In this document: positions 2,887 to 34,940 of the stretch, piece after piece
Numbering within the stretch: position 1 is the first letter of the stretch
Layout of the letters: each line of letters opens with the position of its first letter
DNA from: a virus
DNA: 35,489 nt
Strand: one strand, 5' to 3'
Virus record (IMG/VR): IMGVR_UViG_3300007734_000623
Span: 1-35,489 of that record
The notes under the pieces: model-generated
Databases searched by the model: none
The model's input: the letters and a program-made list of their open reading frames with translations, nothing else
Told to the model about the DNA's origin: nothing
Position numbers and translations under genes: made by a program

Positions 2887-3000
2887 ATGGAATCAAAAGA
2901 AGAATTCTGGCAACTGCTGGTGCTGCTCTTAGCCCGGCGGGTGTACGAATTAGAAGAACGGCTCAAGAAATTGGAGAAGAAATGCAAGCCGAACAAATAG
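2887..3000 (+). CDS. Possible 37-aa helical peptide
   Basis: An ATG at 2887 opens 37 codons: a hydrophobic stretch (WQLLVLLLARR) followed by a charged, heptad-like tail (LEERLKKLEKK). It overlaps the start of the primase-helicase by 19 nt and contains that gene's GGAG ribosome site. It starts only 5 nt after the T-tract of the terminator and has no ribosome site of its own, so it may serve only as translational coupling, or not be translated. Confidence 0.35.
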   Translation: MESKEEFWQLLVLLLARRVYELEERLKKLEKKCKPNK

Positions 3001-5063
3001 CAAAGGCGCTTGGCAACGCGAAAAGAGTTGGCAAAGGATGGTTGGCAAGTTGCCCACTGCCAACGCATGGACAAGGTCATGGAGACAAGAACCCGAGTCT
3101 TTCCATCAGTGATGGAGATGACGGCAAACCCCTCTTTAAGTGTCACTCTGGTTGCGATCAGCATGAACTGTTTGCGGCCATCAGGGATTACGGGCTGCTG
3201 CCAGACATTGAGATTCGTGACCCATTGGCATCAATCAAACCCCTGCCTGCGCTCCAGGCACCCGTCCTTGAGCATGAGTGGGTTTATGTGGACGAGTATG
3301 GTGACCCATTGTTTGTCAAGCAGAGATTCAAGACCAGCACGGCCAAGGGTAAGGATTACCGCCAGGCTAGGATCAACAAAGACGGGTCAAAGTCTTATTC
3401 GCTGGGAGATTGCAGGATCGTGCCATACAGGCTCCCCGAGCTGCTGAATGCAAAGACAGCGGGACGCGCCATCTACCTGGTGGAAGGTGAGAAGGCAGCC
3501 GATGCCCTGGTGGAGATCGGCGCAATAGCCACGAGTGCTCATTCAGGGTCTGGCAGTTGGCCAGCAGAGATCACCCAATACTTTGCCGGGGCCACTGTGG
3601 TCATGCTGCCAGACAACGACCTGGCGGGTTGGAAGTATGCGCGGCTCGTGGCAGCGGCACTGATTCCAGTGGTGAAGTCTTTGAGGATTGCCGACCTGCC
3701 ACTTGAGAGACCCACAGATGACGCCTGGGAGTGGGTCCACGAGTACGGTGGAACCCGACAAGAGCTGGCCGAACTCGCCAAGCAAGCCCAACCCATCACC
3801 TCGCAAGAGGATGTAACGATACCGGCAAGATTTACGGTGGCACCGCAAAGCTCAGTTGCAGAACCATTTGCCGAATCTGCCGAACAGGTTGCAGAACCCA
3901 AAACCCAGGAACCTTACAAACCCTTCAAGATTGAGTCTTGGCAATCAGTCAAGGATGAACCCGTTAACTGGTTGGTCGAAGGCGTGATCCCTGAAAAGTC
4001 ATTTGTGGCCCTGTATGGGCCGCCAGCGTCATTCAAGTCATTTATTGCCATGGACATTGCCGAGTGCATCGCATCAGGCCGTGACTGGTTGGGAAACAAG
4101 ATCAACGGCACTGGGCCAGTCTTGTACATCGCCGGGGAAGGTCACGGCGGTATCGGGGCCAGGATTGCCGCGATCAAGCAGCACCACAACACGCCAGATG
4201 ACGCCCCAATCTATGTGATCAGGTCCCAGATCAACCTCAGATCAAGTGTTGATGACTTCTTGGCGCTCATTGTGGCCATTGATGAGCTGGTCAAGGAGCT
4301 GGGTGTTGACCTGCGCATGATCATCATTGATACCCTGGCCAGAGCGTTTGGCGGTGGAAATGAGAACTCGAGTGATGATATGGGTGCCTTTATCCAGGCC
4401 ACGGGAAAGATTCAAAATAGGTACAGATGTAGCTTGATGCTGCTGCACCACGCTGGCAAGGACACGACAAAAGGACTGCGCGGTCACTCCAGTCTGCTGG
4501 GTGCCGTGGACACGCAAATGGAGATCATGCGGTTCCCCGAAACCAGCAAAGGCGTGATCCTCATGTCCAAGCAAAAGGACGGTGAGGACGGTCAGAGGTA
4601 CGGGTTTGAGGCCATCACGGTGGACATTGACAGGTCAGATTTGGGTCTGGAGAACGGCTCCAGCCTGGTCATTGAGGCGTCAGAGGTTGGCGACATGAAG
4701 ACCTCAGACGCAGAAAATAAGCCAGAAAAAGGCAAAGCAATTGGCGCAAAACAGAAGATTGCTGAGAAGTCACTAATTGTTGCAATTAAAACCTTTGGCT
4801 CCATTATGGACACTCCAGAGGGGCGCAAAAATGCCATCACTTTGGAGCAGTGGAAGGCCGAATTCACGGCCATGATCGGGTCAGATGTGACCTCAAACCA
4901 GCTCGCAACGTACTGGGGCCGGGCCAAGGATCACGTCATAAAAAGTGGATTTGGGACCATCAGAAACAGCAGTGTTTGGGCAAATCGTAAGGACGTGACC
5001 ACTGGATTTGAGGCAGAGTCGCTGCTGAAAGCCGGGAAACTGGCGGCGTTGGTTGATGAATGA
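2982..5063 (+). CDS. Primase-helicase (zinc, TOPRIM and RepA-like ATPase domains)
   Basis: A 693-aa fused replication protein. Residues 24-58 carry a C24/H29/C54/C58 zinc-site pattern like those of DnaG-type primases. A TOPRIM domain follows with E168 (YLVEGEKAAD) and D211/D213 (LPDNDLAG). The C-terminal half is a RecA-fold, RepA/AAA_25-type hexameric helicase: Walker A around K352 (GPPASFKS), Walker B at D450 (MIIIDTLARA) and a LLHHAGKD motif shortly after. It should lay primers and unwind the fork. A GGAG lies 6 nt before the ATG. No DNA polymerase is encoded anywhere in the genome, so its product must hand over to a host polymerase. Two origin-like regions lie just downstream. Confidence 0.9.
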   Translation: MQAEQIAKALGNAKRVGKGWLASCPLPTHGQGHGDKNPSLSISDGDDGKPLFKCHSGCDQHELFAAIRDYGLLPDIEIRDPLASIKPLPALQAPVLEHEWVYVDEYGDPLFVKQRFKTSTAKGKDYRQARINKDGSKSYSLGDCRIVPYRLPELLNAKTAGRAIYLVEGEKAADALVEIGAIATSAHSGSGSWPAEITQYFAGATVVMLPDNDLAGWKYARLVAAALIPVVKSLRIADLPLERPTDDAWEWVHEYGGTRQELAELAKQAQPITSQEDVTIPARFTVAPQSSVAEPFAESAEQVAEPKTQEPYKPFKIESWQSVKDEPVNWLVEGVIPEKSFVALYGPPASFKSFIAMDIAECIASGRDWLGNKINGTGPVLYIAGEGHGGIGARIAAIKQHHNTPDDAPIYVIRSQINLRSSVDDFLALIVAIDELVKELGVDLRMIIIDTLARAFGGGNENSSDDMGAFIQATGKIQNRYRCSLMLLHHAGKDTTKGLRGHSSLLGAVDTQMEIMRFPETSKGVILMSKQKDGEDGQRYGFEAITVDIDRSDLGLENGSSLVIEASEVGDMKTSDAENKPEKGKAIGAKQKIAEKSLIVAIKTFGSIMDTPEGRKNAITLEQWKAEFTAMIGSDVTSNQLATYWGRAKDHVIKSGFGTIRNSSVWANRKDVTTGFEAESLLKAGKLAALVDE

Positions 5064-5089: not shown

Positions 5090-5198
5090 CACCACAAACA
5101 CCACAAACACCACAGATGTGGTGAGGTTGTGGTGCCACATTCACCACAAACACCACAAACACCCCTATAAGGGGTTGTTTGTGGTGTGGTGTGTGGTG
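5090..5198. repeat. 9-bp CACCACAAA tandem array with hairpins; candidate origin or operator
   Basis: Copies of CACCACAAA lie at 5090-5098 and 5099-5107 (followed by CACCACA at 5108-5114) and again at 5142-5150 and 5151-5159; the reverse complement TTTGTGGTG is at 5178-5186, followed by more GTGGTG units. They form dyads: 5108-5114 with 5117-5123, 5127-5134 with 5142-5149, and a long hairpin 5151-5165 with 5171-5186 (about 15 bp, one bulged T, loop TATAA). The 194-bp stretch 5064-5257 is otherwise noncoding. Iterated short repeats beside a replication gene suggest initiator binding; a transcription control site is the alternative. Confidence 0.75.
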
Positions 5199-5257
5199 TG
5201 GTGTTTTGTTGGTGTAGTGTTTAGCAAATTGATGATTAATGGGTTGGAGGTAAAAGG

Positions 5258-5956
5258 ATGAGCGCAAAACAGGATCAGGTGGGTCAGGGGAAAAGTCGGA
5301 TGCCAGGTCGTGGGGTCAAGCCAGATTTCCCGGCAACCGATTTTGAGATCAGGCAGGCATCATGGTTGGCTGAGATTGATCGCGTTAAGGTGGATCAGGA
5401 TCGGAAATGGGGTACTGACAGATTGTGTACTTTAGTTGATCCATGGTTTCGGGAGAAATTCTGGCAGCAGCAGCAAAGGGTTTGGCAGGCTTGTCAGGCC
5501 AGGGATAGTGAAAGGCTTGAGAAGTCAGCAGCAGGCATGGTCAGGGCTTACCAGGCGCTCGAGGCCTGGGCAGTCCAGCACGCAGTGCCAGTGCGGCCTG
5601 CCGTGGGCGCGGTTGAGCGTGTGGGCAAAGATGGGAAACTGATGGTGGTGGTCGCCACCAAGCAAGATGCGGTGTGGTATCGCGAGAACCGTCCAGACGT
5701 TGAAGGCCAGCACGTTTGGTCCATGGAGGAGATCGAGCTGCTGATTGAGGCTGAGATCAACCAGGCAGTGGTCGAGGCCAAGATCAGGTACGCTAGGTTT
5801 GACCCGGTAGTGGTCAAGGTGGAGAAGTTGGGGGGTGAGACGGGCTTTGATGATTTTGTCAATGACCTTGATCTGTCAGCGCCAACGAAGGCACCTAAAA
5901 TGTTTGACAGCAAAACAGCGGAGAAATTCAAGCATGGACAAAATCGAGCGATTTAA
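5258..5956 (+). CDS. Hypothetical protein before the terminase genes
   Basis: A 232-aa soluble protein, not recognised. The N-terminus is basic (GKSRMPGRGVKP), the middle is rich in Trp, Gln and Arg (WFREKFWQQQQRVWQ), and the C-terminal third is acidic. GGAGG lies 8 nt before the ATG, a strong start. It is the first gene after the repeat region and lies upstream of the small terminase gene, so roles in replication control or packaging are both possible; the sequence does not decide. Confidence 0.75.
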   Translation: MSAKQDQVGQGKSRMPGRGVKPDFPATDFEIRQASWLAEIDRVKVDQDRKWGTDRLCTLVDPWFREKFWQQQQRVWQACQARDSERLEKSAAGMVRAYQALEAWAVQHAVPVRPAVGAVERVGKDGKLMVVVATKQDAVWYRENRPDVEGQHVWSMEEIELLIEAEINQAVVEAKIRYARFDPVVVKVEKLGGETGFDDFVNDLDLSAPTKAPKMFDSKTAEKFKHGQNRAI

Positions 5957-6025: not shown

Positions 6026-6460
6026 ATGCCTGGGAACCCTAAACGCAGGAAGGATGTTGCGTTTCTGAATTCCATGCCAGAGGAAATGATTTTGAGCATG
6101 GTCGAATGCGGCAAATCGATCGCTGATATTTGCGTCAGTTTGGGCATTAGCAAACGCGCTCTTGATCAATGGATTGATGAAAATGACATGGGTGCTATGA
6201 TTACGCGCGCGCGTGCACGTGCCGCTGATCTCATGGCCTGTGACACGATCACCATCGCGGACGGCATGGACGTGCAGAACCCGCAGCGAGACGTGCAGCG
6301 CATCCGCACGCGCCAGTGGCTGGCAGAGCGATGGGATCAGAAGACTTACGGCTTACAAAAGGCGCAGCAGGTAAACATCAACATCGGGTCGATGCGCATG
6401 GACGCGCTGCGCCATGCCGAGGTCATCGAGGCCGAGTTATCCACAGGCGAAGGCAAATAA
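6026..6460 (+). CDS. Terminase small subunit
   Basis: A 144-aa protein with an N-terminal helix-turn-helix (about residues 28-53: SIADICVSLGISKRALDQWI) followed by helices that would oligomerise, matching Sf6/P22-like small terminases in size and arrangement. It recognises phage DNA and hands it to the large subunit 340 bp downstream. A DnaA box (6437-6445) lies within its last codons, so the coding region overlaps the putative origin; the pac site may also lie in or near this gene, as in related headful phages (inference). Confidence 0.8.
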   Translation: MPGNPKRRKDVAFLNSMPEEMILSMVECGKSIADICVSLGISKRALDQWIDENDMGAMITRARARAADLMACDTITIADGMDVQNPQRDVQRIRTRQWLAERWDQKTYGLQKAQQVNINIGSMRMDALRHAEVIEAELSTGEGK

Positions 6461-6522
6461 GTGATAACTTATCCACAGACCAGCAGTGATTGCCTGTGGA
6501 TAACTGTCATTTCTGTGCATAA
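6437..6522. other. Cluster of four DnaA boxes (putative replication origin)
   Basis: TTATCCACA occurs at 6437-6445 and 6469-6477, and its complement TGTGGATAA at 6495-6503: three perfect consensus DnaA boxes. TGTGCATAA at 6514-6522 is a fourth that fits TTWTNCACA. Two boxes face each way; the first two start 32 bp apart. Boxes 2 and 3 form a 10-bp inverted repeat (6469-6478 with 6494-6503). An AT-rich stretch (about 6538-6592) follows and could be the unwinding element. The arrangement resembles a bacterial oriC. Confidence 0.75.
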
Positions 6523-6799
6523 GTGCCAGAGCACGCATTGAATAACTTAACATAATGGACATAGTCGCGATTAGGCTTTTGATAATGATCGGACGATTCC
6601 AGCATCCACGCCGCATTGCACGCAAGCAGTCACTAACCAGCAATTCACAGGCGCGTGCAAGTTGCGCACAGGCTGCTGGCCGCGGTGGACACGGCCGCGG
6701 TGGCCGCGGCGCTGACCCTGGCCAGCCTGGCCGCGCCGGACCCCCCCTTTGCGCTCGCGGCGGGGGCAGGCTGATGCAGCACCTTGAGAAACACCGACC
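6523..6799. other. Intergenic region: AT-rich stretch then GC-rich island
   Basis: The 339 bp between the terminase genes hold the DnaA boxes, an AT-rich segment (6538-6592) and, at 6671-6772, a very GC-rich island with three CCGCGG palindromes and repeated GGCCGCGGTG units. The island differs sharply in composition from its neighbours. It contains a GTG-started 39-codon frame (6655-6774) rich in Ala and Leu, and a 9-codon frame (MQHLEKHRP) whose stop overlaps the large terminase ATG; neither has a convincing ribosome site. No gene is supported here. Confidence 0.6.
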
Positions 6800-8284
6800 A
6801 TGACCCACCCCCCTACCCCGACCCCCATCGCGCCCAGCGTCCCAAAAAAAATTAAAAAAATTGAGACAACGCTCGACCCAAACCAGAACCCGTTTGTCGA
6901 ATTCGTAAGACTCTACAAAAATAACCCTGTAAGGTTTGTGCAAGAAGTGTTGGGCGTCACGCCTGACCCGTGGCAAGCTGAATTTCTGATGCACATTGCC
7001 AAGGGTAACCGCCGCATCTCTGTCAGGTCCGGCCACGGCGTTGGCAAATCGACCGCTGGCGCTTGGGCCATGCTCTGGTATCTACATTTGCGGTTCCCGG
7101 TGAAGATTGTGGTCACGGCCCCCACCAGTAGCCAGTTGTATGACGCCTTGTTTGCTGAACTCAAGCGCTGGATCAAGGCCATGCCGCAGCTCTTACAGGA
7201 TCAGCTCGAGGTCAAGCAGGATCGCATCGAGGTCAAGGATGCCGCCACCGAGGCCTTCATTTCAGCACGCACGTCCAGGGCCGAGCAGCCCGAGGCCCTC
7301 CAGGGCGTGCATAGCGACAACGTGATGCTGGTTGGGGATGAGGCATCGGGCATCCCTGAACAGGTCTTTGAGGCCGCTGGTGGCTCCATGTCTGGACACA
7401 ATGCCGTGACGCTGCTGCTGGGCAACCCGGTGCGGTCCAGTGGGTTTTTCTACGACACCCACAACAGGCTTGCTGATGACTGGGTGACTATGAAGGTAGC
7501 GTGCGCTGACTCACCTCAAGTCAGCGAGGCCTACATTGAGGAGATGAAGGCGCGTTACGGTGAAGAGTCCAATGCTTACCGCATTCGCGTCTTGGGTGAA
7601 TTTCCGCGGTCAGACGATGACACGGTGATCCCCATGGAGCTGCTGGAGATGGCCTCCAACCGGGACGTTGAGGCGAGTCAGCACGCCAAGATGGTGTGGG
7701 GCTTGGACGTTGCCCGATTTGGTTCTGATAAGTCAGCCTTGTGCAAGAGACAGGGCAATGCTGTCACTGAACCCATCAGGACGTGGAAAAACTTGGATTT
7801 GATGCAGCTCACGGGTGCCATTGTGGCTGAGTGGGAAGTCTTGATGCCCAGCGCCAGGCCGCAAGAGATCTTGGTGGACTCGATTGGTTTGGGTGCTGGG
7901 GTTGTGGACCGGTTGCGGGAGTTGGGGTTACCGGCTCGCGGGATCAACGTGGCCGAGAGTCCGGCCATGGGCAATACTTACAGGAATCTGAAAGCTGAAC
8001 TCTGGCACAAGGCCAAGGCCTGGCTTGAGGCGCGGGACTGTCGGATGCCCAAAGATGAGGCGTTGATTGCTGAGTTGGCCACAGTGAGGTATTCGTTCAC
8101 GAGTTCGGGCAAGATCCAGATTGAGGGGAAAGATGAGATCAGGAAACGCGGCCTGCCGTCCCCTGACCGGGCAGATGCGTTTTGTTTGACCTTTGCGTCT
8201 GACGCTGTTGTCGGGATGTACGGGTCTGCTGGGTCTGCCAAGTGGTCGCAGCCTTTGCGCCGCAACCTGCCAAGGGTTGCATAA
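6800..8284 (+). CDS. Terminase large subunit
   Basis: A 494-aa packaging motor. The ATPase half has Walker A around K83 (SGHGVGKST) and Walker B D180-E181 (VMLVGDEASG). The nuclease half (RNase H fold) has the expected acids: D303 (GLDVARFGSD), D360 (ILVDSIG) and D456/D459 (SPDRADAF). It pumps DNA through the portal and cuts it. The ribosome site is weak (TTGAGAAA). The N-terminus is Pro/Thr- then Lys-rich (PPTPTPIAP..KKIKK) and probably disordered. Full length, no defects seen. Confidence 0.95.
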   Translation: MTHPPTPTPIAPSVPKKIKKIETTLDPNQNPFVEFVRLYKNNPVRFVQEVLGVTPDPWQAEFLMHIAKGNRRISVRSGHGVGKSTAGAWAMLWYLHLRFPVKIVVTAPTSSQLYDALFAELKRWIKAMPQLLQDQLEVKQDRIEVKDAATEAFISARTSRAEQPEALQGVHSDNVMLVGDEASGIPEQVFEAAGGSMSGHNAVTLLLGNPVRSSGFFYDTHNRLADDWVTMKVACADSPQVSEAYIEEMKARYGEESNAYRIRVLGEFPRSDDDTVIPMELLEMASNRDVEASQHAKMVWGLDVARFGSDKSALCKRQGNAVTEPIRTWKNLDLMQLTGAIVAEWEVLMPSARPQEILVDSIGLGAGVVDRLRELGLPARGINVAESPAMGNTYRNLKAELWHKAKAWLEARDCRMPKDEALIAELATVRYSFTSSGKIQIEGKDEIRKRGLPSPDRADAFCLTFASDAVVGMYGSAGSAKWSQPLRRNLPRVA

Positions 8285-18219: not shown

Positions 18220-18729
18220 ATGGCAAAGACGGGATCATTAACGCAACAGCGCTTGAAAGAAGTGTTGCACTATGATCCTGAGACTGGAATTTTTACTTGG
18301 GCTATTGATAGACCAATGGCTCCCAAGGCACCCAAAGGAAAAGTTGCTGGAAAAGTAAATAGTCATGGATATTTTGTGATTTGCGTAGATGGTGTTAGGC
18401 ATCATGCACATAGGCTTGCATGGATGTATATCCATGGAGATAGGCCAATTGAAATTGACCATCAAAATCATATTCGCACTGACAACAGGCTTGTAAATCT
18501 GAGATCTACTGATAGATCTGGCAACGGAAAAAACATTTCAAAACCAATTAACAATAAATCTGGCGTTGTTGGGGTTTCATGGACCAAAAGATTAGGCAAG
18601 CGATATGACAAATGGGAAGTCAGAGCTTGCGGTAAATTTTTAGGATATTTTGACGATTTTTTTGAGGCTGTTTGCAAGAGAAAATCTGCTGAACGGCAAT
18701 TCAACTTTCACCCCAATCACGGTATTTAA
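18220..18729 (+). CDS. HNH homing endonuclease with AP2-like DNA-binding domain
   Basis: A 169-aa protein: HRLAWMYIHGDRPIEIDHQNHIRTDNR gives the HNH-3 core (H64, D80-H81, N89), and residues about 114-165 (SGVVGVSWTKR...KWEVRACGKFLGYFD) are an AP2-like three-strand DNA-binding unit. This is the usual phage free-standing homing endonuclease. AGGGG lies upstream. The gene is clearly more AT-rich than its neighbours, a sign of recent entry. It splits the tandem-repeat protein from the tail fibre. Confidence 0.9.
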   Translation: MAKTGSLTQQRLKEVLHYDPETGIFTWAIDRPMAPKAPKGKVAGKVNSHGYFVICVDGVRHHAHRLAWMYIHGDRPIEIDHQNHIRTDNRLVNLRSTDRSGNGKNISKPINNKSGVVGVSWTKRLGKRYDKWEVRACGKFLGYFDDFFEAVCKRKSAERQFNFHPNHGI

Positions 18730-18741
18730 TGGAGATTCAAC

Positions 18742-20178
18742 ATGGCTGACTCAACTACAACAAACTTGTTACTTACCAAACCAGAGGTGGGTGCAAGCAC
18801 CGACACCTGGGGCACAAAGATCAATACTGACCTTGACAGTTTGGATGCAGTCTTCACGGCCAATGGCACTGGCACCAGCGTTGGATTGAATGTTGGAGCT
18901 GGCAAGACGCTGGCAGTTGCTGGGACGTTGACGGTGACTGGATCGGCAACTGTTGAGTTTGCTGATGGGTCTGCCGCATCACCATCAATCACCAATGATG
19001 GTGATACCAACACGGGCATCTTATTCCCCGCTGCTGATACTGTTGCCATTGCTACTGGCGGGACTGAGATCGCAAGATTTGACAGCGCAGGTAACTTGGG
19101 ATTGGGTGTTACGCCTAGCACCACAATATTCTCTGGCTCAAAGATGTTGCAAGTTGGGTATGCGGGTAATGTGTTGCAAGGTATTACACTTACAAACTTT
19201 TCAATGGCTTGCGGCGCATTTTTTAACTCAGCAGGCAATTGGCAGAGTACTGGTTCTGGCTTTAGAAACACATTGTATTCTCAGTCTGATGGCGGGCATG
19301 CTTGGTATAACGCCGCTGTAACTACTGCTGGCTCAACCGTCTCCTTCACCCAAGCAATGACGCTTGATGCGTCTGGGAATTTGGGGGTGGGGACTACAAG
19401 TCCTAATTCTGGCGCAAGGTTAACTTTATCGTCTGGAACAACAGATGCTCAAAGCCTTTCTATTGATTCCACGAACACCAGTGGCGGTAGAAACGGTAGC
19501 GTAATCTTTCGTGGAACCTATGGCGTTGGTGGCGGTGGCTTGTTTGATGCCGCAATCATTGCTCGGATAAATATTGACGATGCAAATAATTCATCAAACA
19601 GTCAGGCATTAGCGTTTTATACAAAGTCTGGAACTTCAGCGCCAGCAGAACGTGCCCGTATCGACTCCAGCGGTAACTTGCTGGTGGGTAAGACTTCAAC
19701 TTCTGCAACAGTAGGCGGCGGTGTTGTCTATTTGGGAAGAATGGATGCAGCGCGAGACAACGGAGATGTTGCAACATTCAAACACACTGCGGCAGGAAAC
19801 ACTGTTGGCTCTATTTCAATTACTTCAACTGCAACAACTTATAGCACTTCTTCCGACTATCGCCTTAAAAACATTACGGGGCCATTAATAGGCGCTAAAG
19901 ATTTCATCATGGCGTTGCAACCAAAGCAAGGCACATGGAAAGCTGATGGTTCTAAGTTTGTTGGTTTCTTGGCGCATGAATTCCAAGAGGTTAGCCCATC
20001 ATCTGTAACTGGAAAAAAGGATGCCGTAGATGAAGATGGCAAGCCAATTATGCAGTCAATGCAAGCATCAAGTTCAGAAGTAATTGCCAATATGGTTTCG
20101 TTGCTCCAAGAACAACAAGCCATCATAGTCAGTATGCGTGAAGAACTTGACTCTTTAAAGTCCAAGGTGGGCGCATGA
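18742..20178 (+). CDS. Tail fibre with C-terminal S74 chaperone domain
   Basis: A 478-aa fibre. The N-terminus ([31 protein letters not shown]) is the common phage fibre attachment segment; a Gly/Thr/Ser beta shaft with repeated [12 protein letters not shown]-type units follows; the C-terminus from about 368 is a peptidase S74 intramolecular chaperone with the catalytic dyad S371/K376 (SDYRLK) and a final coiled coil. In this family the chaperone trimerises the fibre and cuts itself off. It should bind the host receptor. The coiled coil ends early (SKVGA); a matching tail-like end is found on the next gene. Confidence 0.88.
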
Positions 20179-20183
20179 TTACT
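20173..20183 (+). repeat. 11-bp direct repeat, left copy (flanks HNH gene)
   Basis: GCATGATTACT at 20173-20183 recurs at 20691-20701, one copy at each end of the second HNH gene. Each copy contains a TGA stop overlapping an ATG that begins Met-Ile-Thr. Confidence 0.85.
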
Positions 20184-20696
20184 CAAGAACGATTGCATGA
20201 AATGTTTGAATACAGGGATGGAAACCTGTATCGCAAAATAAGCCTTGGTAGAACAAAAGCTGGTGACAAGGTTGGTTTTCTAAATGATAAAGGCTATGTG
20301 GCTGTCAATATTGACAATCAATGTATTGGCCTTCACCGCATTATTTGGATGATGCAACACGGTGAAATGCCATCGTTGATTGACCACATTGACGGCAATC
20401 GCCAAAACAACAAAATTTCTAACTTACGATTGGCTGACAGGTTTGGTAACGCACAAAACAAACGTATGCACCGCAACAATACATCTGGCGTAAAAGGTGT
20501 TTCTTGGCATAAACGTGCAGCAAAATGGAAAGCGCAAATTGTTTGCAATGGAAAGCACTACAACTTAGGCTTATACAAATCCCTTGATGATGCAGACGAA
20601 GTGGTTTGTTTGGCAAGGGAAATGCTACATGGCTCTTTTGCAAATCACGGAATTCAATCACTCACCGCCCGTATAACTGCTTTGGAGTCAGCATGA
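20175..20696 (+). CDS. HNH homing endonuclease with AP2-like domain and fibre-like C-terminal tail
   Basis: A 173-aa protein. HNH-3 core: [22 protein letters not shown] with H54, D70-H71 and N75/N79; AP2-like domain at about 103-155 ([20 protein letters not shown]). Its sister at 18220 ends at ...NHGI; this one continues past NHGI with 13 residues, [13 protein letters not shown], which read like the end of a fibre coiled coil. The gene begins with ATGA on the fibre stop. The extra tail suggests insertion at the 3' end of the fibre gene, capturing its last codons. Confidence 0.88.
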
Positions 20697-20701: not shown

Positions 20702-20980
20702 TGGAACATCAGTCAACTTGACCGACAAACATCAGATGGTTTTGTCACAACCGCACATTGGCAAGCAACTGCAACAGATGGGGATTACTCTGCATCCATT
20801 GTGAACACTTGCTCATGGAGTGATGGTTCTCCAACAGTGCCATATGACTCTCTGACACAAGAAACTGTATTGGGATGGATATGGGCCAATGGTGTGGATA
20901 AAGACGCTGTTGAAGATGCTTTGGCTGCTCAGATTGAGTTGCAAAAGAACCCTGTTAAAGCCACTGGAGTGCCTTGGTAA
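20693..20980 (+). CDS. Conserved phage protein, DUF7936-like
   Basis: A 95-aa protein: WNISQLDRQTSDGFVTTAHW, SDGSPTVPYDSLTQETVLGWIW and a C-terminal IELQKNPVKATGVPW. I recall this pattern from proteins after tail fibres in many phages (DUF7936), role unknown. The ATG at 20693 overlaps the HNH stop; the longer upstream frame merely shadows the HNH gene. A lone DnaA-box match (20893-20901) inside it is probably chance. Confidence 0.8.
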   Translation: MITWNISQLDRQTSDGFVTTAHWQATATDGDYSASIVNTCSWSDGSPTVPYDSLTQETVLGWIWANGVDKDAVEDALAAQIELQKNPVKATGVPW

Positions 20981-34468: not shown

Positions 34469-34493
34469 ACATCTCCTTGTTGTTGATATGCGG

Positions 34494-34521
34494 ATCATAC
34501 ACCGATTGACTATCTCATCAA
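34494..34521 (-). promoter_or_regulatory. Sigma70-type promoter of the minus-strand early operon
   Basis: On the minus strand: -35 TTGATG (34521-34516), 16-bp spacer, -10 TATGAT (34499-34494; five of six to consensus). Transcription would begin near 34487, about 20 nt before the first ATG with its ribosome site between. TTGACTAT (34506-34513, plus) and its inverted near-copy (34535-34542) flank the -35 and may be operator half-sites. Confidence 0.6.
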
Positions 34522-34553
34522 ATCCCCTACGCTACAGTCAACTATTCCACCCG

Positions 34554-34660
34554 TACAATCAACCCGGCGGGTTCATCCTCCCGCTGATTGCACCGGGCAC
34601 TCCACCCGATGCGGTTGCCACTTCGGGGGCTGGGCAGCGTTGTCTGGCCCCCATTTTTTC
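34554..34660 (+). ncRNA. Candidate structured leader or small RNA
   Basis: A TACAAT -10-like box (34554-34559) precedes a stretch that can fold in several ways: GCGGG/CCCGC (around 34567-34584), CCGG/CCGG arms, CGGG/CCCG (34593-34608), and ends in the intrinsic terminator at 34625-34659. There is no good -35 and no open frame with a ribosome site. It could be an RNA of about 95 nt or an attenuating leader for the HTH gene downstream. Confidence 0.4.
34625..34659 (+). terminator. Rho-independent terminator upstream of the HTH gene
   Basis: GGGGGC (34625-34630) pairs with GCCCCC (34647-34652); six further pairs, several G-U, extend the stem to 12 bp with a 4-nt loop, followed by A and six Ts (34654-34659). 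It faces the plus strand and lies 45 nt before the ATG of the regulator. Confidence 0.8.
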
Positions 34661-34703
34661 ATGGTCTTGCACAAGTTGTCAATTTGGGGTTAACATCCAA
34701 GAC

Positions 34704-34940
34704 ATGAAAACAACCGACAACCCAATCCGAGACGTGCTGGTCAAGGCCAGTGCCGCAGGCTACACCATGGCAGACGTGTGCAGGGTCGCGCAGATCGACC
34801 AGTCCCAGGTCAGTCGCTGGCTCAGTGGCCGCACCAAGCCCCTCTATGACAGCGTCAAGCGCCTCAATGACGCCACTGATGCCCTGGTCGCGGCCAGGCT
34901 TGAAGTGCTCAACAAGGCCATGGATGAGGCGCTCAAATGA
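34704..34940 (+). CDS. Cro/CI-like HTH regulator
   Basis: A 78-aa protein: MADVCRVAQIDQSQVSRWLSG (about 18-38) is a clear helix-turn-helix of the XRE type, followed by helices (SVKRLNDATDALVAARLEV) that could dimerise. The ATG at 34704 has only a weak ribosome site; the longer upstream frame crosses the terminator and is not used. Divergent from the minus operon, it is placed to control both sides. It overlaps the RuvC gene by 4 nt. Confidence 0.8.
   Translation: MKTTDNPIRDVLVKASAAGYTMADVCRVAQIDQSQVSRWLSGRTKPLYDSVKRLNDATDALVAARLEVLNKAMDEALK

Follow-up and report, generated by a model that had tools for sequence, protein, structure and literature searches.

The replication origins of P1 and of the iteron plasmids, as described in the covered part of PMC4980987, combine iterons for the replicon's own initiator with DnaA boxes and an unwinding element, and several of them also carry IHF sites; P1 possesses two DnaA-box arrays, one of which can serve as a secondary origin (PMC4980987, covered part). 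Among phages, DnaA boxes have been predicted by Ori-Finder in Pseudomonas phage vB_PseuGesM_254 (PMC11512268), which differs from the case presented here in being a software prediction on one genome, given in the covered text without conservation or iteron evidence. Extrachromosomal mycobacterial prophages use RepA- and RNA-based origins according to the covered text of PMC7157519, and DnaA is absent from its main text. A phage that encodes no DNA polymerase depends on the replisome of its host, and the means of attracting it are known for few model phages.

We analysed IMG/VR record IMGVR_UViG_3300007734_000623 over its full 35,489 nucleotides (hereafter the window, meaning this whole stretch of DNA), in which an earlier note had described an oriC-like cluster of DnaA boxes at the end of the small terminase gene terS. 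Our main reading, with a probability of roughly 0.6, is that replication starts through a two-part system of iterons plus DnaA, to which this cluster, 1.2 kb from the iterons, contributes the host-DnaA module. Like P1 oriR, RK2, F, R6K and pSC101 (PMC4980987, covered part), these phages combine iterons, probably for their own initiator, with DnaA boxes; unlike P1 oriR and the iteron plasmids, the window keeps its boxes 1.2 kb away from the iterons, and its probable initiator is the primase-helicase itself. In a sister lineage the boxes lie among the iterons. Bacterial oriC, as covered in the same source, shares the placing of consensus boxes beside an unstable stretch, and relatives of the window share its IHF sites, whereas the window cluster lies in a phage terminase gene cluster, lacks the IHF consensus, and is a candidate start of replication. 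The components are known already; what appears new in these phages, within the literature searched, is the detached layout and the swapping of the initiator domain together with the iterons, since no title or abstract described this phage group or arrangement, with most subscription papers outside the coverage.

DnaA-box cluster at the end of terS

The gene terS, encoding an Sf6-like small terminase, occupies positions 6026–6460 on the plus strand. Box 1 (6437–6445, plus strand) is an exact TTATCCACA within its last codons, and the other boxes follow 3′ of the gene: box 2 (6469–6477, plus) and box 3 (6495–6503, minus) are again exact TTATCCACA, and box 4 (6514–6522, minus) reads TTATGCACA. The cluster is therefore real as it had been described, with three exact boxes and one variant in 86 bp, two per direction, one of them in the terminase coding end. 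A further exact box stands isolated at 20893 (minus). Simulation at three Markov orders, with 150 genomes for each, gave on average 0.73, 0.41 and 0.23 exact TTATNCACA sites per genome, and a stretch of 90 bp never held more than one of them. Sites with at most one mismatch showed no excess over the whole window (19 found against 23.84 expected), so that the unusual feature is the exact cluster, in which several consensus boxes are packed beyond chance.

Relatives were collected by TerL and primase scans of IMG/VR, and all counts of relatives refer to the matches listed. Loci with both terS and terL gave at least 131 regions, at least 85 of them distinct, compared from the end part of terS to the start of terL. 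The 85 distinct regions consist of 26 close ones, the window among them, whose TerL is 95.5% or more identical, together with 59 more distant ones, referred to as the other regions; such locus counts cover related sequences rather than independent events, and the loci overlap in part. Four boxes with the spacing 32/26/19 were found in all 26 close regions among the matches listed, where 32 of 36 box columns are invariant versus 14 of 66 spacer columns, the latter counted up to the AT-rich core with the G/C flanking the boxes left out. Box 1 is invariant at 9/9 positions. The DnaA consensus is degenerate at box positions 3 and 5, and the four columns that vary occupy positions 5, 5, 3 and 5 of their boxes; variation is thus confined to degenerate consensus positions, as it would be in a conserved DnaA-box cluster.

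Across the 85 loci listed, the terS–terL regions (41,424 bases) hold 168 copies of TTATCCACA and the remaining 601,538 bases hold 0, and in 12 records of 31–36 kb the cluster accounts for 37 of 44 TTATNCACA matches. Every one of the 59 other regions among the matches listed has at least one TTRTNCACA box, with place and orientation changed (one box in 1 region, two in 22, three in 24 and four in 12). A paired-box pattern built from boxes 2 and 3 retrieved 51 IMG/VR stretches, 40 of which carry at least one of four window proteins, and 105 stretches from bacterial genomes, with the DnaA C-terminal signature in 6 of the 105 fetched pieces. By comparison of these sequences, many uncultured freshwater phages, forming a large group, retain the box cluster at its place, and a host-dependent element becomes visible through conservation in a large environmental group. 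A hairpin formed by the inverted repeat of boxes 2 and 3 was also considered and found no clear support, one locus (L016) altering both arms alike and another (L011) breaking the pairing.

An LST/IST tail is encoded by 87 of 95 distinct TerS genes among the matches listed, spelled TTATCCACA in 63, TTGTCCACT in 12, TTGTCCACA in 9 and otherwise by three single variants of the same string. CTN or AGY codons are never used in these tails, although TTA makes up 5.2% of the leucine codons in 29 window ORFs. This codon choice points to selection on the DNA. The earlier note had asked for box conservation free of coding constraint, and the boxes proved to be kept beyond coding or chance constraint, those in noncoding sequence included.

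AT-rich core, helical stability and IHF sites

Beside the boxes lies a conserved AT-rich core, AATAACTTAACATAATG (6541–6557), invariant at 14 of 17 positions in the close regions. Among the matches listed, 25 of the 26 close regions contain the motif TRACATAATG, as do 47 of the 59 others, and in those 47 it lies on the plus strand in 43 and on the minus strand in 4. The 60-bp segment 6537–6596 is helically unstable, ranking among the least stable 0.17% of 60-bp segments (0.43% with 40-bp and 0.54% with 100-bp segments near 6537), and may be an unwinding element. The AT-rich neighbour claimed for the boxes is thus real but moderate, with less stable segments at 18.3–21 kb and elsewhere. The part of the genome richest in AT holds two HNH endonuclease ORFs (18220–18729 and 20175–20696), possibly insertions.

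An exact IHF consensus was found in 0 of 26 close regions, window included, an argument against the window having the complete layout of an oriC. Exact matches occur in 30 of the 59 other regions (shuffles: mean 0.57, maximum 3), where the sites differ only in the unspecified middle of the consensus; the 601,538 bases outside the terS–terL regions contain 8.

These features bear on the view that 6437–6600 is a complete oriC-like origin at which host DnaA alone would load the replisome, while the iterons upstream regulate the primase gene or serve otherwise. Four boxes of fixed spacing adjoining an unstable, conserved core speak for it, as does the IHF consensus in 30 of the 59 other regions. 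We nevertheless consider it unlikely, given that the primase C-terminal and iteron types switch jointly, that DnaA boxes lie at the iterons in sister phages, with 26 of 136 loci having boxes there only, and that the skew has no turn. The cumulative GC skew does not turn at 6.4 kb, but it tracks gene direction and is uninformative, and third-position GC skew revealed no two-arm pattern.

Iteron array and primase-helicase

A second candidate origin lies at 5090–5206, where an array of CACCACAAA-type iterons in direct and inverted copies may serve a phage initiator. Within it, an iteron, the hairpin CCCCTATAAGGGG (5162–5174) and an inverted iteron form a palindrome (5150–5187), and the other lineages examined have the same palindrome layout with different repeats. 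The array is situated directly behind the gene of an AAA_25 primase-helicase (2982–5063, plus strand), the probable phage initiator, so that repeats stand beside the putative initiator gene as in iteron-type replicons. The PHROG 'DNA polymerase/primase' matches residues 263–587 of this protein, the stretch holding AAA_25. Between iterons and terS a conserved protein is encoded (5258–5956, plus strand); Foldseek gave no match at E 0.001 or better for its model (mean pLDDT 70.6), nor for that of the 2249–2836 protein (mean pLDDT 70.4).

The C-terminal part of the primase-helicase, residues about 561–693 (4662–5060), is exchanged along with the iterons. Residues 1–260 are 82–97% identical to those of the window in 30 close relatives among the matches listed. 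Residues 626–693 are 81–99% identical to the window's in the 21 loci with CACCACAAA-like iterons, 15–16% in the 8 loci with CCATATTCA iterons and 22% in the 1 locus with CATTTTCGA iterons. C-terminal type and iteron type agree in 30/30 close relatives, as they do for residues 561–625, where the iterons were sorted into types by eye according to their most frequent 9-mers and the 30 are related loci, not 30 independent events. Overall primase similarity does not predict which type a locus has, a pattern that recombination would produce.

Most simply, the iterons would be read by the C-terminal part of the primase, and the joint change of the two makes it probable that an initiator and an origin of its own belong to the phage. 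As an origin candidate, the iteron array at 5.1 kb is at least as good as the box cluster. Such paired swaps of initiator domain and iterons would also offer a natural system for studies of origin specificity. A working resemblance exists to the alpha protein of satellite phage P4, which comprises a primase, a helicase and a C-terminal part reading short repeats, with ori and crr as its sites; the union of domains is similar, and the helicase of the window is of AAA_25 type. We know of no DnaA requirement for P4.

Sister phages and distribution of the boxes

The best TerL match among phage records, MW202879 (69.7% identical), and its relatives have another primase-helicase, with PriCT_2 and AAA_25, for which tblastn against the window primase gave no match at E 1e-5. 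Behind this sister primase gene, loci L305, L316, L320 and L385 have iterons, DnaA boxes, a palindrome and a further DnaA box, and boxes lie among the iterons in all nine sister loci examined (these four and five more). A scan with the sister primase returned at least 80 loci, 71 of those listed having at least 400 bp behind the gene; at least two boxes within 600 bp were found in 70 of the 71, and one box in the remaining locus. The core motif appears in reverse orientation in 29 of the 54 sister-scan loci with a readable post-terS region and is absent from 25, a split that matches two primase subgroups of the scan.

For a census, 136 distinct loci among the matches listed had both places readable, and at least one TTRTNCACA within about 500 bp was counted. 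Boxes follow the primase gene, terS or both in 133 of the 136. All 76 loci with the window-type primase have them only after terS, the first 500 bp after the primase gene being free of boxes in every case (0/76). The 60 loci with the sister-type primase divide into 30 with boxes in both places, 26 with boxes on the iteron side only, 1 with boxes after terS only (L319) and 3 with neither (L308–L310), so that at least one box stands beside the iterons in 56 of the 60. These natural variants, with boxes at the iterons only, after terS only or in both places, make the role of the boxes testable. The cluster was not found in the more distant phages phiM5, MW202711 and C72C1. In 80 TerL relatives gathered with the MW202879 terminase, 4 had at least two boxes within 300 bp and 62 had none, many of these loci stopping short of the primase gene.

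Proposed two-part start of replication

The earlier note suggested that host DnaA may load the host replisome at the cluster. Host DnaA is likely to take part in replicating the phage, because the boxes are conserved and sister phages carry boxes at the iterons behind the primase-helicase gene; this spot alone acting as an oriC-like origin is the part that found no support, given the separate iteron array at 5.1 kb that follows the primase C-terminal type. Boxes recurring at the iterons in one primase family and behind terS in another suggest a start that needs both a phage initiator and host DnaA. In the two-part system, the phage-specific part would be the iteron array with its palindrome (5090–5206), read by the C-terminal part of the primase-helicase. 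Host DnaA bound at 6437–6522 would open or prepare the adjacent AT-rich core, help to recruit the replication machinery, or both; the phage primase-helicase would then take the fork, and a host polymerase would copy the phage DNA, as no phage polymerase was found. From sequence we infer DnaA binding, binding of the iterons by the primase C-terminus, cooperation of the two sites and the position at which the fork starts. A difficulty for the two-part model is that cooperation would have to span 1.2 kb across two genes in the primase type of the window. Also speaking against it are the 30 loci with both modules and the 3 with neither, the scarcity of paired boxes among the relatives gathered with the MW202879 terminase, the missing IHF consensus in the window and the lack of a skew signal.

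The 30 of 136 loci with both modules indicate that the post-terS module is not simply a relocated iteron-side one, and it might be a second origin there, as one P1 DnaA array can be, or have a separate late function. The same 30 loci, and the position of the cluster between terS and terL, would fit DnaA binding in a role outside replication, either regulating transcription on the terL side or being titrated by phage copies to stop host initiation. This we judge improbable: 26 of 136 loci dispense with a module behind terS, their boxes being confined to the iterons, sequence inspection showed no -35/-10 pair around the core, and soaking up DnaA needs no fixed spacing.

Returning to the two-part start, a broader version is tentative and has rather less than even odds in our estimation, namely that a large uncultured phage group has a modular two-part origin in which primase C-terminus and iterons are swapped as a specificity cassette and the DnaA module sits at the iterons, behind terS or at both. 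The lineage of the window would have uncoupled the two, leaving control by the host initiator beside the packaging genes. If so, host DnaA could couple phage replication to packaging or late expression.

TerS and the packaging region

The boxes could instead be packaging-site repeats bound by TerS, comparable to lambda cos, where TerS and IHF sites are present. They do adjoin terS, and a GC-rich stem neighbours them 3′ of terS in the sister loci examined, even where terL is distant. The boxes are, however, unchanged beside TerS proteins whose first 60 residues are 45–53% identical to the window's (21 of 24 close TerS compared). Boxes also lie behind the primase gene in sister phages, and the core motif beside the boxes is missing from 25 of 54 sister post-terS regions, with the GC-rich stem kept in those examined. 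We therefore rejected a TerS recognition site as the main reading, constancy of the boxes despite strongly diverged TerS N-termini being an indirect test, and regard it as very improbable. Among close relatives with TerL 96–100% identical, TerS is either about 55–60% or 82–87% identical to that of the window, its best conserved portion being the last part.

The GC-rich stem with its 3′ flank (6741–6800) has 50 of 60 positions invariant in the close regions and is itself a candidate packaging site. The sister loci examined carry a comparable stem behind terS, among them L305, where terL is 3.9 kb away. Folded as single-stranded DNA, 6640–6830 was no better than shuffles (z -0.30). A canonical G-quadruplex-type motif, the sole one found in the genome, lies on the minus strand at 6804–6826 at the terL start; overlapping matches of this type extend to about 6843, and the C-rich run is largely kept in the aligned close relatives.

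Genome context

The record ends are identical over 127 bp, indicating a closed circular assembly of 35,362 bp. It encodes portal, capsid and adaptor proteins of the SU10 type, together with a DUF2800/Cas4-like exonuclease and a RuvC-like resolvase. In agreement with the claim that no DNA polymerase is encoded, no match to one came from the 48 ORFs, out of 181 listed, that were compared with one or more libraries and that include every ORF of at least 300 aa. The label 'lytic' given to the phage is not secured: this set of ORFs gave no integrase match either, yet ORF 34488–34940 resembles repressors, with an HTH_3 match just above the Pfam cut-off and two repressor PHROGs. A TerL scan of a genome collection yielded no relative, six stretches fitting the pattern and none being confirmed.

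Three viral contigs (L167, L187 and L191), in which the four window proteins tested had no match, contain an array of seven TTATCCACA boxes, several of them 11 bp apart, and a second group of three boxes 6.6–6.7 kb away. One record, IMGVR_UViG_3300011116_000225 (69,407 bp; L003 and L096), holds two different primase/terminase regions of the group.
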